From Streptomyces sp. NBC_01485 (lineage in GTDB: Bacteria > Actinomycetota > Actinomycetes > Streptomycetales > Streptomycetaceae), in contig NZ_CP109435.1 of the NCBI RefSeq assembly GCF_036227125.1, positions 4,340,001-4,404,000 on the forward strand: DNA of 64,000 bases, written 5' to 3'. Of this stretch, positions 21,426-26,528 are shown in pieces (position 1 is the first letter of the stretch; every line of letters starts with the position of its first letter). Below the pieces are notes generated by a model. That model saw only the letters and a program-made list of their open reading frames with translations, was not told the DNA's origin and searched no databases. The translations under genes were made by a program, and so were the position numbers.

Positions 21426-21884
21426 TCAACTGGCCGTCTGCTGCGGATCGGCGTCGCTCTCGTGGTCCTGCTTCTGTTCCTGCTTCCGCTTCCGCTCCTG
21501 GGCGTCCACCGCACCGTCGCCACTGTCGCCGTCCACGAATCCGTTCTCCTTGCGGAAGGACTCGTAGACCTGGAGCAGCACCTGCTTCTGCTGCTCGGTC
21601 AGCGTGGGATCGGCGAGGACGACGGCACGCGTCTCCACCTCGTCCCGGTCCCGCTCCGCGTCGAGGATCCCGGCCCGCACGTACAGCGTCTCGGCGGAGA
21701 TCCGCAGGGCCTTGGCGACCTGCTGCAACACCTCCGCGCTCGGCTTGCGCAGCCCGCGCTCGATCTGGCTCAGATACGGATTGGACACCCCGGCGGCGTC
21801 GGCGAGCTGCCGAAGCGACAACTGCGCATTGCGCCGCTGCTCCCGCAGGTACTCACCAAGATTGCCGACGTTGAGCGATGCCAT
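21426..21884 (-). CDS. XRE family transcriptional regulator
   Basis: 152 residues with a Cro/C1-type HTH (about 8-65: LREQRRNAQLSLRQLADAAG, then VSNPYLSQIERG). A helical middle and a Lys/Gln/Asp-rich tail follow. ATG 21884 (MASLNVGNLGEYL) is the conserved start. A 26-bp perfect palindrome sits 28 nt upstream and is probably its own operator. The Tn7-like element is inserted just beyond that operator. Confidence 0.9.
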   Translation of the reverse strand: MASLNVGNLGEYLREQRRNAQLSLRQLADAAGVSNPYLSQIERGLRKPSAEVLQQVAKALRISAETLYVRAGILDAERDRDEVETRAVVLADPTLTEQQKQVLLQVYESFRKENGFVDGDSGDGAVDAQERKRKQEQKQDHESDADPQQTAS

Positions 21885-21911
21885 GCCTCCACTGTGCACC
21901 AGCCCCGCTAA

Positions 21912-21937
21912 CTATTGCAAGCACATGCTTGCAATAG
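21912..21937. promoter_or_regulatory. Palindromic operator upstream of XRE gene
   Basis: CTATTGCAAGCA (21912-21923) and TGCTTGCAATAG (21926-21937) are exact inverse complements with a 2-nt centre. The site is 28 nt upstream of the XRE start codon, the normal place for an autoregulatory operator. Confidence 0.8.
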
Positions 21938-21958
21938 TGTGTCGCGCCACTTCGGACG

Positions 21959-22015
21959 ACGCTTGTGACTGAGCACGATAGGTGTCGTATTTGCAGGACA
22001 ACTGTCGTGCAGTCT
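21959..22015 (+). repeat. Left end of the Tn7-like element
   Basis: Contains the direct repeat ACGCTTGTGAC (21959-21969), then TGAGCACGATAGGTGTCG (21970-21987) and a second site TTTGCAGGACAACTGTCG (21990-22007). The same two motif types recur inverted at the right end, the pattern expected of TnsB-binding sites. Confidence 0.75.
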
Positions 22016-22047
22016 CACCGCTGGTCGGGGCCCGCAAGCGAGCATGG

Positions 22048-22080
22048 GTGCAGGGGTCCACTCTGAGTGGACCCCTGCAC
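22048..22080. terminator. Terminator after the DGQHR gene
   Basis: A perfect 15-bp stem: 22048-22062 pairs with 22066-22080 around CTG. It lies 21 nt downstream of the DGQHR gene stop and insulates it from the transposon end and XRE operator. Confidence 0.85.
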
Positions 22081-22100
22081 CTGGCGATGGGCTTCCCTGG

Positions 22101-23297
22101 TCAGAGCTGAATGCTCTCCGCAGGGGAGGGCAGACGGCTCTGAATGAGGAGACTGAGACGCCTACGGCCAGCGTCACCGCTGAATCCCGAGGCGACCGAG
22201 CCGACGCGCCAGAAGTCGGCACCCGAGCGGATTGCACGCTGGCCGTCGTTGTCGACGGACTCGCCCTCCAGGGTAGGAAGCTCGCTCATCACCTCGGCAT
22301 ACCCCTCGGGCTGGCCCAACCTCCCGCCACTGCTGCGGACCACTTCGACCACCTGCGGCAATACGCGGTGCAGCGCCACGGCTCCGTTGCCCTTCTGCAG
22401 GACGAAGTCCGACGCTTCCTCGAACGGCTCGGGCATGACCTGCTTGATGCCGGCCCAGTAGGCATTGAGTACAGCTGCGACGGTCGCCGCGTCCGCGCGT
22501 TTGAACGACGGCATGTCGAGCACCGGCTTGAGGGAGCGGGCGAACTGCGGCTTAGGGATGGTCACCCCGTCACCTCGGGTCTTACGGCGGTTGGCTTCCT
22601 GGAACCTGCCCTTCCACGGACCGTCAAGCTTCTCCAGCTCGTCGACGACGGCGTAGGCGCGAGTGATCCAGTCCTTGTCCTCTGCCGCGAGCATCTCGCG
22701 AAGCTCAGGGTTGTCTTCCGCCATCTTGGTCAGCAGCTGCCAGGCGAGGTCGGTCTTGACGCTGGCGGCATTCGTATTGACCTCGTAGAACTCGCGCATC
22801 TCCTCACCAGGGTCCAGGCCCAGGGTGAGACTGATGGGAACGGGGAAGTCCTCGAAGTCCTCCTGCTCGCCCAGCAGCTGATTCAGACCGCCGGCGCGAT
22901 GCTGGCCGTCATAGATCCACAGCGACAGGTCGTCGGTGAACTCGATGCGCCCGGTGCCGATCCAGTTTCCCCCTTCGAGGACGGCGTTCTCATATCCCGC
23001 CTGGTCGTCGTCGACGACGATGACGACCCGCTCCCCGTCCATGTCGTCCTTGCGGATGTTGATCAGGAGCGGGTTCGGCATCCGGCCCTTCTTCTCGTCG
23101 TAGTACCGGGCCGCCTTGCGCACCCGGGCCGTCACAGGAGCCCGCTGGTAGCCCTCGTTCGTGTCGGGGTCGAAGATATCGACCTCCTGGTGGTCCGACA
23201 CTGTGATGGCGTCGGCGAACGCCTGCAGCATGCGCGTGCCCCTCTGCACGCACAGCGCACCCGCGATCTGAACCGTCTCCTTGACCTGCTTGGCCAC
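22101..23297 (-). CDS. DGQHR domain-containing protein (DndB-like)
   Basis: 398 residues from GTG 23297 (GAGGAG seven bases upstream; the TTG five codons earlier lies over that ribosome site). The hallmark is IYDGQHRAGGL (DGQHR about residues 130-134), followed by EEMREFYEVNTNAASVKTDL, the FxxVN-type motif of the family. DGQHR proteins include DndB of phosphorothioate systems and other defence-associated proteins. No dnd or other modification genes are nearby, so the role here is open. It is divergent from the HTH gene across four AGATCT repeats. Confidence 0.85.
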   Translation of the reverse strand: MAKQVKETVQIAGALCVQRGTRMLQAFADAITVSDHQEVDIFDPDTNEGYQRAPVTARVRKAARYYDEKKGRMPNPLLINIRKDDMDGERVVIVVDDDQAGYENAVLEGGNWIGTGRIEFTDDLSLWIYDGQHRAGGLNQLLGEQEDFEDFPVPISLTLGLDPGEEMREFYEVNTNAASVKTDLAWQLLTKMAEDNPELREMLAAEDKDWITRAYAVVDELEKLDGPWKGRFQEANRRKTRGDGVTIPKPQFARSLKPVLDMPSFKRADAATVAAVLNAYWAGIKQVMPEPFEEASDFVLQKGNGAVALHRVLPQVVEVVRSSGGRLGQPEGYAEVMSELPTLEGESVDNDGQRAIRSGADFWRVGSVASGFSGDAGRRRLSLLIQSRLPSPAESIQL

Positions 23298-23347
23298 GTT
23301 GTTGCTCCTCAAGATCCTTGAATGGCAGAGTGAAGCCTGGAGCTTCG

Positions 23348-23399
23348 TTAGATCTGAATATTAGATCTACCGTTTAGATCTGTCAATGAGATCTGGTAA
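23348..23399. promoter_or_regulatory. Four AGATCT repeats at exact 13-bp spacing
   Basis: TTAGATCT begins at 23348, 23361 and 23374 and TGAGATCT at 23387, so the period is exactly 13 bp four times. Each core AGATCT is itself palindromic. The array lies 50 nt upstream of the DGQHR start, in the divergent promoter region shared with the HTH gene. An operator for cooperative binding, or an iteron-like array, is most likely. Confidence 0.8.
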
Positions 23400-23450
23400 A
23401 TGGGCCAGCTTGCGGGTGATCACGCCTCCATCCGCTCGGCGTCGTCCGGT

Positions 23451-23783: not shown

Positions 23784-24722
23784 ATGGCCACCGAGGACCA
23801 GACGCCCAGTTACTACATGGTCGAGGACAACGACTCCATCGACACCCAGATGGCGGAGCGGATCAACGAGTTCAACTGGGACCCGGATGCCGCAGGGGCC
23901 GTCATGGCCTTGTTCCCGGTTGATTGGGCCGGGTGCGAAGGCGAACTCGTGACCCTTCGCCAAGATGGGACCGTCGCCATCGACATCGACGGTACGTTCG
24001 CACTGCCCGAGCCGTTCGATCGCGGTACTCACAGCACGATGATCACCACCACCACCGGCATGGCGGTGCTCAAACCCGATCACCCGGCCAACCAGATGGT
24101 CGAGTCCGGCTTCCAGGCGGTCGGCGTCCCGGTGCCCGAGGTGGTCCGGGCGCTGAACGCCCGCGAGGCCGCCCTCACCGGGGACCGGGCGGCGATCCGC
24201 GCCTACACCTCGGAGGCGCTGGGAAGGTGGAGCGGGTGGAGCGAGCCGATCTCCACCGCCCTGCTCGGCAACTGGGCGGACCCGCTTCACAACGAAGGCC
24301 GACTTTCCCCCGGTGCCCTGGCCCTGTTCCTGGCCGAGGCCAGCGTCATCAACAAGCAACTCAAGCCGATCTGGGACCGTAAGGCCAACAGGGAGTACGT
24401 GCGACTGCTCGACGCCCCGCTCAGCCACGGGATGACCCTGCACGACGTGCTTTCTGGACAGCCGGCCATCGACCTCAGCTTCGATGGCTTCGAGGACTCG
24501 CGCCTGATCGAGATCCTGGAGACCCTGTCCACGGACGAGCGGGCAGTGGTTATGTGGCGCAGCCGCCACGGAATCACCAGCTGGGCCGAAGCCGCTATGG
24601 CCGCCGGTGTTCCAGAGCCGGAGGTTGTCGGCAAGCGGGTCCGCCGGAAGGTGAAGCGGCTTGCCGCCCACATCACCAGTGGCGCCCTCCAGGCCGGGGC
24701 GGGTACGGGGAACGTGCGATGA
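23784..24722 (+). CDS. Hypothetical protein with C-terminal sigma-region-4-like HTH
   Basis: 312 residues from an ATG with a strong GAGGAGG site. Residues 1-200 match no family I know (starts MATEDQTPSYYMVEDNDSID). The C-terminus (LIEILETLSTDERAVVMWRS ... SWAEAAMAAGVPEPEVVGKR) resembles a sigma-70 region 4/LuxR-like helix-turn-helix. A following small membrane gene overlaps by ATGA. It could bind the 13-bp AGATCT array upstream, but that is inference. Confidence 0.72.
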   Translation: MATEDQTPSYYMVEDNDSIDTQMAERINEFNWDPDAAGAVMALFPVDWAGCEGELVTLRQDGTVAIDIDGTFALPEPFDRGTHSTMITTTTGMAVLKPDHPANQMVESGFQAVGVPVPEVVRALNAREAALTGDRAAIRAYTSEALGRWSGWSEPISTALLGNWADPLHNEGRLSPGALALFLAEASVINKQLKPIWDRKANREYVRLLDAPLSHGMTLHDVLSGQPAIDLSFDGFEDSRLIEILETLSTDERAVVMWRSRHGITSWAEAAMAAGVPEPEVVGKRVRRKVKRLAAHITSGALQAGAGTGNVR

Positions 24723-25022: not shown

Positions 25023-26528
25023 TCAGCGCTGCTGGGGGCCGAAAAGGGGGATGGCCTTCCAGCCCTCCTCCAGGATCGGGTTGTTCTCCAGGAACTCGTG
25101 CCCCGTGAACAACTGCAGCAGCGTTAGGGCGCCGTTCGGCGGGTCGGTGAGCAGGAGCTGGGACAAGCTGATGTCGGTGATGGTGACGGCGTGCTCCAGC
25201 TCGTGGATCGAGGCCGTGGTGATGGGGATGGTCTCGCCCGTCACCGGGTTCGGGGTGGGCTGGATTCCGGCGCGGAGCTCGGCGGTGTTGAGCAGGTGGA
25301 ACGGCTCCATCGTGATCACCATGCCCCGCCGCGGCAGGTGGGACGGGATCTGCGCGAACGCGGGGTTGCCCTCGGAGATGAGCCGGTCGGTCTTCTCGAT
25401 CTGGGTGAATCCTTCGCCGGGCGTCTTGGCCAGCATCTGGGCGTAGTTCTCCGCGCCGAGGCGCAGGTTGGCGTTGGGTCGGGCGGACTTGACCTCCACC
25501 AGCAGCACCAGGTCCGGGAAGACGACAATCCAGTCCACGGACTTACCGCCGTCCCCCTTCCTCGCGCCCGGATGCCGGATCTCGGGGTAGACCGTCGCGT
25601 TGTCGAGCAGGCCGAGCTGGCGCCCGACGTACGCCTCGAAGAGGTGCCCGAGGTCTGTGGTGAACAGCTTGCCGCGCGGCGTGGAGTTCTCCTCGCCGCC
25701 GGTGTAGTAGAGGCCGAGCATGCTCGCCTTGGACAGGACGGCGGCCGGCACCGGAACCAGGTAGCCCTCGCCGAACCCGGCGACCAGCGGGGTCGTCCGC
25801 AGGGGGTTGTGGCCGTAGCGGCGCAGCAGCGGGTCCGGGGAGGCCGGGTACGTCGCCTGGAGTCCGGGGGCGTCGGTCACGAAGTGGCGCTCCAGGACCG
25901 CAGTCGCATCGGCTACGGACCGCAGCGTGGAGAAGGCCGAGTAGTCCGCCGGGGCGAGCATCATGTCCGGGATGAATCGGCCCTTGAGCTCCGGGATCGG
26001 GATGCTGGTGGTGGTCGCCCAGACGTAGCGGGCCAGGCCGACGTAGTCGGCCACCGAGCACCCGAGCACGTCTTGTGCCCAGCCAGGGCCGATCACCTTG
26101 AGGGGCTCCGGGGTGCTGGTCTGGGTGAGGAGAGCGACCGCGCGGCTCAGCTCGGCGTACTCGTCTACCTGCCAGATGAACTGCTGGCCGGCCACCCGCA
26201 GGAGCAGGCGCGTGAGCTTCTCCTGCGGCGACTCCTTGTAGAAGGGGTCGTCCAGGGCGAGGTAGAAGCCCAGTATCTGTGCAAGGTCGCGCGGCTGTGC
26301 CGGGGCGCGGTTGATGTCCTGGCCGAGGGCAAGGGAGATCCAGGCGGCGTCGGCGAGGGCCCAAGGGCCGTATACGCCGAGACCTTCGTGCTCGCGCAGG
26401 TCACGGGGGTGCGGGAGCTGTGCGCTCGTGGAGGCGATGAGTTCCACGAGTGAGCTCTGCGAGTGGCGCAGGATGCGCCGGACGTACTGGGAATCCGGGA
26501 CGCCGGATGCGGGGACGGAGTACGGCAT
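25023..26528 (-). CDS. PD-(D/E)XK nuclease-like protein
   Basis: 501 residues with no clear named family. The region about 296-350 shows a restriction-endonuclease-like core: a helix with Glu (LFEAYVGRQL, Glu about 298), then SVDWIVVFPDLVLLVEVKSA with Asp about 332, Glu about 345 and Lys about 347 (the D...ExK pattern). The N-terminal 290 residues are mostly helical and may bind DNA or a partner. It is transposon cargo, between the HTH unit and a Tn3 remnant, so a defence role is plausible but unproven. Confidence 0.72.
   Translation of the reverse strand: MPYSVPASGVPDSQYVRRILRHSQSSLVELIASTSAQLPHPRDLREHEGLGVYGPWALADAAWISLALGQDINRAPAQPRDLAQILGFYLALDDPFYKESPQEKLTRLLLRVAGQQFIWQVDEYAELSRAVALLTQTSTPEPLKVIGPGWAQDVLGCSVADYVGLARYVWATTTSIPIPELKGRFIPDMMLAPADYSAFSTLRSVADATAVLERHFVTDAPGLQATYPASPDPLLRRYGHNPLRTTPLVAGFGEGYLVPVPAAVLSKASMLGLYYTGGEENSTPRGKLFTTDLGHLFEAYVGRQLGLLDNATVYPEIRHPGARKGDGGKSVDWIVVFPDLVLLVEVKSARPNANLRLGAENYAQMLAKTPGEGFTQIEKTDRLISEGNPAFAQIPSHLPRRGMVITMEPFHLLNTAELRAGIQPTPNPVTGETIPITTASIHELEHAVTITDISLSQLLLTDPPNGALTLLQLFTGHEFLENNPILEEGWKAIPLFGPQQR

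Follow-up and report, generated by a model that had tools for sequence, protein, structure and literature searches.

An exact 13-bp ladder of AGATCT palindromes upstream of a DGQHR/DndB-like gene in Streptomyces: a conserved array with the features of a self-operator

In the genome of Streptomyces sp. NBC_01485, four short palindromes stand at regular steps in front of a gene for a DGQHR/DndB-like protein, and the question that this locus raises is what such a ladder is for and which protein would read it. We analysed the 64,000-nucleotide stretch of DNA that contains it, referred to here as the window. The AGATCT cores lie at 23350-23355, 23363-23368, 23376-23381 and 23389-23394 (cores 1 to 4, assigned to no strand), each step being exactly 13 bp, as an initial reading made from the letters alone (the sequence-only reading) had stated. 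The positions given there, 23348, 23361, 23374 and 23387, are the starts of 8-mers two bases 5' of each core (TTAGATCT in three copies, the repeat family at 23348, 23361 and 23374, and TGAGATCT as the fourth); the coordinates needed this correction, and the register stood. The same reading had held that successive sites rotate around the helix, and indeed 13 bp corresponds to 1.24 turns at 10.5 bp per turn, a rotation of about 86 degrees per site. AGATCT occurs 18 times in the window, against a mean of 6.24 in shuffled sequences, and none of 100 shuffles reached 18. Across the organism's own genome (9.17 Mb), exact AGATCT-N7-AGATCT was found at the array only; one mismatch brought in four other places, and three AGATCT in 13-bp register, with up to two mismatches allowed, again returned the array as the single place. 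A palindromic hexamer repeated three times at 13 bp arose in 0 of 20,000 simulations with a first-order Markov model of the 200-bp upstream stretch of the window.

The gene next to core 1 occupies 22101-23297 on the minus strand and encodes a protein of 398 amino acids with a GTG start at 23297. The mechanically called open reading frame begins at a TTG at 23312; the GTG is favoured because of the alignment to relatives and a ribosome-binding site, GAGGAG at 23305-23310 on the minus strand, recognised by eye. Relative to this start, cores 1 to 4 lie at -58 to -53, -71 to -66, -84 to -79 and -97 to -92, core 1 being the nearest. The protein scores above the cut-offs of two curated models, PF14072 (40.1 bits against 29.1) and TIGR03187 (88.2 bits against 58.85), and carries the DGQHR motif at residues 130-134, which places it in the family. 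Other members of the DGQHR family belong to systems for DNA modification and defence such as Dnd and Dpd. The window protein showed no identifiable DNA-binding domain; an AlphaFold2 model built on a three-row alignment had a mean pLDDT of 41, too poor for a fold search, and a sequence profile run against the PDB gave a best E value of 0.016, with no convincing match to a ParB-type or other structure. Just past the stop codon, a perfect 16-bp hairpin at 22047-22081 on the minus strand is a probable terminator (region 22036-22096, -36.7 kcal/mol, z -5.0), so the gene looks monocistronic.

On the strand of the DGQHR gene, a promoter-like TTGACA-17-TAATAT is predicted inside the array. The -35-like TTGACA (23381-23386, minus strand) matches the consensus at six of six positions; it is located between cores 3 and 4 and shares one base with core 3. 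The putative -10-like TAATAT (23358-23363, minus strand) matches at four of six, is located between cores 1 and 2 and shares one base with core 2. The 17 bp that separate the two elements take in nearly all of cores 2 and 3, and cores 1 and 4 fall outside them. The partial recurrence among the spacers (CATTGAC, GATTGAC and TATTTGAC) is explained by the -35 box sitting there. The arrangement had been called unusual for an operator; that holds for the spacing and fails otherwise, overlap with a promoter-like element being typical of operators.

Related loci were searched for a conserved spacing. Counting the window, four close DGQHR loci were found, and the three relatives, two from Streptomyces and one from a genome of another family, are 92, 90 and 88% identical in protein to that of the window. 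Among 295 Streptomyces genomes, a close DGQHR gene was present in two, the organism's own included, and seven other matches were remote. An order-wide search of 391 genomes returned four with DGQHR genes: the own genome (G000), G275, G403 and the distant G405. A class-wide search returned 2 of 345, namely the own genome and one weak match without a ladder, and in the family of G405, 2 of 14 genomes matched, both known already. A peptide-seeded scan of 84,980 species, which uses exact short peptides and so misses distant relatives, yielded two close DGQHR loci, one of them in the organism of G275; further 13-bp ladders may exist beyond those found. The AGATCT ladder precedes the DGQHR gene in all four close loci, and the relatives have three to five cores roughly 50 to 100 bp before the start codon. 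Streptomyces swartbergensis (L016) has three cores, S. hyaluromycini (L017, the organism of G275/L007) has five, two of them with one mismatch, and the third relative (L106/L108, genome G403) has five, at steps of 13, 14, 13 and 13 bp. Promoter-like elements inside the array were also predicted in L108 (TTGACA-17-TAAGGT) and L017 (TTGACG-17-CATGCT), and the match in L016 is weak (TTGCTA, four of six, with a poor -10). Thus, the array and its 13-bp pitch recur before homologous DGQHR genes.

The conservation is confined to the cores. Core start positions in the four loci range from -102 to -48 relative to the start codon, and all 17 cores have GATC, with the outer A and T kept in 16 of them. 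The flanking bases show a weaker preference, C or T on the 5' side and A or G on the 3' side, each in 14 of 17. Mean identity is 96% for the cores, against 27% within loci and 29% between loci for twelve of the thirteen spacers, all 7 bp long, the single 8-bp spacer being excluded. By blastn, the coding sequences of the four loci align at 83 to 86% and the array region does not. Judged from these alignments, cores conserved among random spacers are the mark of selection on binding sites and not of tandem duplication.

A fifth, distant locus was found in G405 (L109), the DGQHR protein of which is 31% identical to that of the window. AGATCT repeats are absent there; instead, GTCGAC occurs three times, at -98, -85 and -72, with the same 13-bp pitch and at a similar distance from the gene. 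Taking all 64 palindromic hexamers, exact triples at 13 bp numbered four in the 285,710 bases of fetched loci, a set that includes the array loci and some overlapping sequence; all four lie before DGQHR genes, in the window, L016, L108 and L109, L017 being left out because its cores are degenerate. In the same bases, the other spacings between 8 and 44 bp yielded four such triples in total. The GTCGAC ladder was spotted by eye before this count, so that the test is partly post hoc and the GTCGAC case is a single one. If that ladder holds, the family would have kept the 13-bp pitch while the palindrome changed, and it is this same pitch with another palindrome before a distant DGQHR gene that suggests the DGQHR protein as the binder. 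Such a pattern would be expected of a protein that fixes the pitch and has a diverged recognition surface.

The ladder has limits within the family. None was seen at the more remote DGQHR loci, which comprise seven in Streptomyces (L008-L013 and L015), one in another genus (L112) and five on proteobacterial plasmids (L113-L117); an eighth Streptomyces match (L014, G195) was weak, with a frame that is not DGQHR-like, and was excluded. By eye, the seven remote Streptomyces genes closely follow another open frame. A phage or plasmid origin of the gene was considered and rejected: tblastn against 50,697 phage records gave no match, in 72,556 plasmid records the window protein matched only five DGQHR genes, all of them remote and lacking a ladder, and the L109 protein matched none of these plasmid records. 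When viral contigs were compared with an alignment of five DGQHR proteins, 200 stretches matched the seed and 0 were confirmed.

Three ways in which the array could have arisen or could act apart from the neighbouring protein were weighed. That it is a functionless 13-bp minisatellite left by tandem duplication is scarcely credible. Streptomyces do have AGATC-containing 13-bp tandem arrays: a scan of 392 genomes for the pattern with up to two mismatches found it in 15, where, among the fetched loci, a DGQHR relative was present only at G000 and G275, and the remaining 13 showed, by eye, mostly tandem 13-mers with like spacers. Imperfect 13-bp repeats are in fact common, as the same pattern written backwards matched 38 of the 392 genomes, and because this control exceeded the forward pattern, single imperfect matches are uninformative. 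The case for the array rests instead on exact cores, random spacers and recurrence before one gene. Spacer similarity within loci, tested directly, is at the random level, and the same cores precede the same gene in otherwise unalignable DNA, so the minisatellite was rejected. The sequence-only reading had suggested an iteron, and a replication element with a 13-mer unwinding region has next to no probability here. The argument for it comes from elsewhere: of 41 viral contigs with the pattern, 39 have 13-mers starting with AGATCT next to DnaA-box-like repeats. Those viral 13-mers have near-constant spacers by eye and the DGQHR arrays do not; no DnaA-box-like TTRTCCACA, with at most one mismatch, was found in the window between 22800 and 24000 or near the arrays of the relatives; and none of the seven window proteins scanned around the array against Pfam is a replication protein. 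With no such box and no repeated spacers, the iteron claim falls. We consider it highly improbable, too, that the array is a methylation-sensing operator in which adenine methylation within GATC (or GTCGAC) would tune binding and couple the gene to a methyltransferase. AGATCT and GTCGAC are well-known restriction and methylation words, which fits the idea, as does the position of the S. swartbergensis DGQHR gene directly before HmaA, HmaB (a methylase) and HmaC. Against it, two loci whose Hma genes are 85 to 91% identical to these (L132 and L133) have neither a DGQHR relative nor an array, and the HmaB model found no match in G000, G275 and G403 and only a weak fragment in G405.

The remaining two alternatives grant the array an operator role and assign it to other proteins. 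The sequence-only reading had pictured a multimeric binding platform for a divergent pair, the DGQHR protein and a right-hand helix-turn-helix (HTH) protein. Two divergent genes do flank the array, the right-hand one (23784-24722, plus strand) at a distance of about 390 bp. The protein encoded there, however, had no match at E 0.1 among the Pfam, NCBIfam and PADLOC families, so that the assignment as an HTH protein finds no backing in the Pfam and NCBIfam models. Its homologues at 59 to 67% identity (L019-L021) have no pair of AGATCT at 13 bp in their flanks and no DGQHR gene. Conversely, the DGQHR relatives retain the array with no right-hand-gene relative nearby (none is encoded in L016, L017, L108, L109 or L110), and of 295 genomes, 34 gave a match to the right-hand gene, whereas G275, which has the DGQHR gene, did not. 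No locus with both genes was found outside the window. Because DGQHR relatives keep the array and right-hand homologues lack it, the array goes with the DGQHR gene; the link to that gene survives from the earlier view, the pairing does not, and a shared operator or platform for the divergent pair, now very unlikely, was rejected. Lastly, the array could be the operator of the DGQHR gene and be bound by a different trans-acting regulator encoded elsewhere. The operator of an unlinked regulator would look identical, the DGQHR protein has no recognised DNA-binding domain, and in two of the four loci (L017 and L108) a divergent serine recombinase gene adjoins. Yet the exact ladder is unique in its own genome, which would leave such a binder one obvious target; the four neighbourhoods have no gene but DGQHR in common; and before a distant DGQHR gene a different palindrome keeps the same pitch. 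We regard a separate regulator as unlikely, though less so than the preceding four alternatives.

The array is probably the operator of the DGQHR gene's own promoter, with the DGQHR protein as the most likely binder, which would repress its own gene cooperatively. The operator role is well supported by the position, core conservation and promoter-like overlap read from the sequences. Under self-repression, each AGATCT, with GATC at its core, would be a symmetric site for one dimer. Dimers would sit side by side every 13 bp, about 86 degrees apart, wrapping the promoter, the -35 and -10 elements of which lie between and against the cores and would be covered. As the DGQHR protein accumulates, it would cooperatively shut off its own transcription. 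Several observations weigh against this reading. The close loci are only four and the distant one is single; L017 has two degenerate cores, L108 has one 14-bp step, and L016 has a weak promoter match; the remoter DGQHR genes have no array; and no DNA-binding domain was found in the protein. Also, the DndB motif TACG-N10-CGTA is absent from the 200 bp upstream of the DGQHR gene in all five loci (the window, L016, L017, L108 and L109).

Known systems offer partial parallels. In MetJ, a ribbon-helix-helix protein, tandem met-box palindromes at an 8-bp pitch are bound by side-by-side dimers over a promoter; the window likewise has tandem short palindromes over a promoter, and differs in its 13-bp pitch and in the DGQHR gene. 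DpdB is similar at the family level, but the window protein scores 39.9 bits with NF041060 against a cut-off of 300. Streptomyces BldC binds promoters as a cooperative oligomer, on repeats that vary in number (PMC5859096); cooperative oligomerisation is what we propose here, whereas the BldC repeats are asymmetric, head-to-tail direct repeats with 9 bp per subunit (same source) and those of the window are palindromes at 13 bp. The nearest precedent is DndB. In Salmonella enterica, the promoter of the DndB (DptB) operon contains two palindromic boxes, TACG-N10-CGTA, to which DndB binds, and the operon is repressed by DndB (PMC4507180); S. lividans DndB is also called a negative regulator of its own gene (PMC6186775). 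As with the Salmonella protein, a DGQHR-family protein here has repeated palindromes in its own promoter, binding and repression being known for DndB; in place of the two 18-bp boxes of Salmonella (PMC4507180), the loci here have ladders of three to five palindromes, each of 6 bp, at a 13-bp pitch. DndB has been assigned to the ParB superfamily, and binding of ATP and GTP has been described for a DndB-like protein (PMC12704722 and PMC10853773); the latter source doubts that transcription control is the whole role of the DndB-like protein. The window gene differs from a dnd operon in being followed by a hairpin, and no DndD-family gene (TIGR03185) exceeds the cut-off in its genome, the best scoring 33.2 bits against 245.85. 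With this, the hairpin and the absence of TACG-N10-CGTA sites, DndB proper was set aside as an identity for the protein.

Best read, then, the array is real and conserved and would represent an unusual variant of DndB-type autoregulation, neither an iteron nor a shared divergent operator. A literature search of incomplete coverage, hence no proof of absence in print, found no matching operator or DGQHR regulation, and we know of no DNA targets of stand-alone DGQHR proteins. Four spacing-locked loci and a re-coded fifth would make a testable DNA target for a DndB-like protein, and the array offers a way into how such a protein recognises DNA and, as a repressor, may polymerise along it. A broader picture is speculative and, taken as a whole, rather doubtful: a branch of DGQHR (DndB-like, ParB-type) proteins might polymerise on 6-bp palindromes at a 13-bp, quarter-turn pitch, with the pitch fixed and the palindrome lineage specific (AGATCT or GTCGAC). 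In that case, the array could be a parS-like nucleation strip for NTP-switched spreading or signalling, self-repression would be only its visible side, and the stand-alone gene would move between genomic sites.

The surroundings of the gene vary. When frames of at least 100 amino acids were compared across the four close neighbourhoods (16.5 kb of the window and the whole of L016, L017 and L108), all matches at 1e-8 fell on the DGQHR gene, except for a recombinase that L017 and L108 have in common. L016 has a pentapeptide-repeat gene and HmaABC, and L017 and L108 have the serine recombinase, so the DGQHR gene and its promoter look, from these comparisons, like a stand-alone unit in varying surroundings. 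The divergent serine recombinase beside the array, with a phage-type zinc-finger domain, is encoded at L017:6787-7746 and L108:7103-8191, and the two copies are 54% identical; its presence hints at mobile DNA as the carrier of the DGQHR gene. In S. swartbergensis, HmaA, HmaB and HmaC (L016:9647-17195; PADLOC E values of 1e-189, 6e-133 and 4e-94) directly follow the DGQHR gene. HmaB was detected in 11 of 238 Streptomyces genomes at 1e-30; nine of the eleven regions were opened, and BLAST with the five DGQHR proteins matched none of the nine, nor did any of them show a 13-bp ladder; in three (L134, L136 and L140), a frame contains a DGxHR-like motif, recognised solely as a pattern. Since the adjacency occurs only in L016 and L132 and L133 have neither partner, a role of DGQHR as an Hma regulator was dropped, and on this evidence the association appears incidental.

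Some further observations concern repeats and genes near these loci. In five Streptomyces loci (L048, L049, L054, L056 and L060), tandem 13-bp AGATC repeats have near-identical spacers and are distinct from the DGQHR ladder. The 39 viral contigs noted above (L063-L103 without L091 and L101) form one family of about 50% GC in which AGATCTAAGACTA-like 13-mers stand beside TTATCCACA or TTGTCCACA boxes, an arrangement reminiscent of a DnaA-type replication origin. Behind the GTCGAC-type DGQHR gene lies a gene (L109:9574-10656) for a P63C-domain protein (PF10546, E 7e-32). In the window, a gene near the DGQHR gene (25023-26528, minus strand) has a weak GapS1-like match (NF047931, 31.9 bits against a cut-off of 320). 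On the other side, a chromosomal HTH gene at 21426-21977 shares 80 to 91% DNA identity with 12 other Streptomyces genomes; the long matches of its region end at about 21930-21980, with only short scraps beyond, and this point looks like the edge of an acquired stretch.
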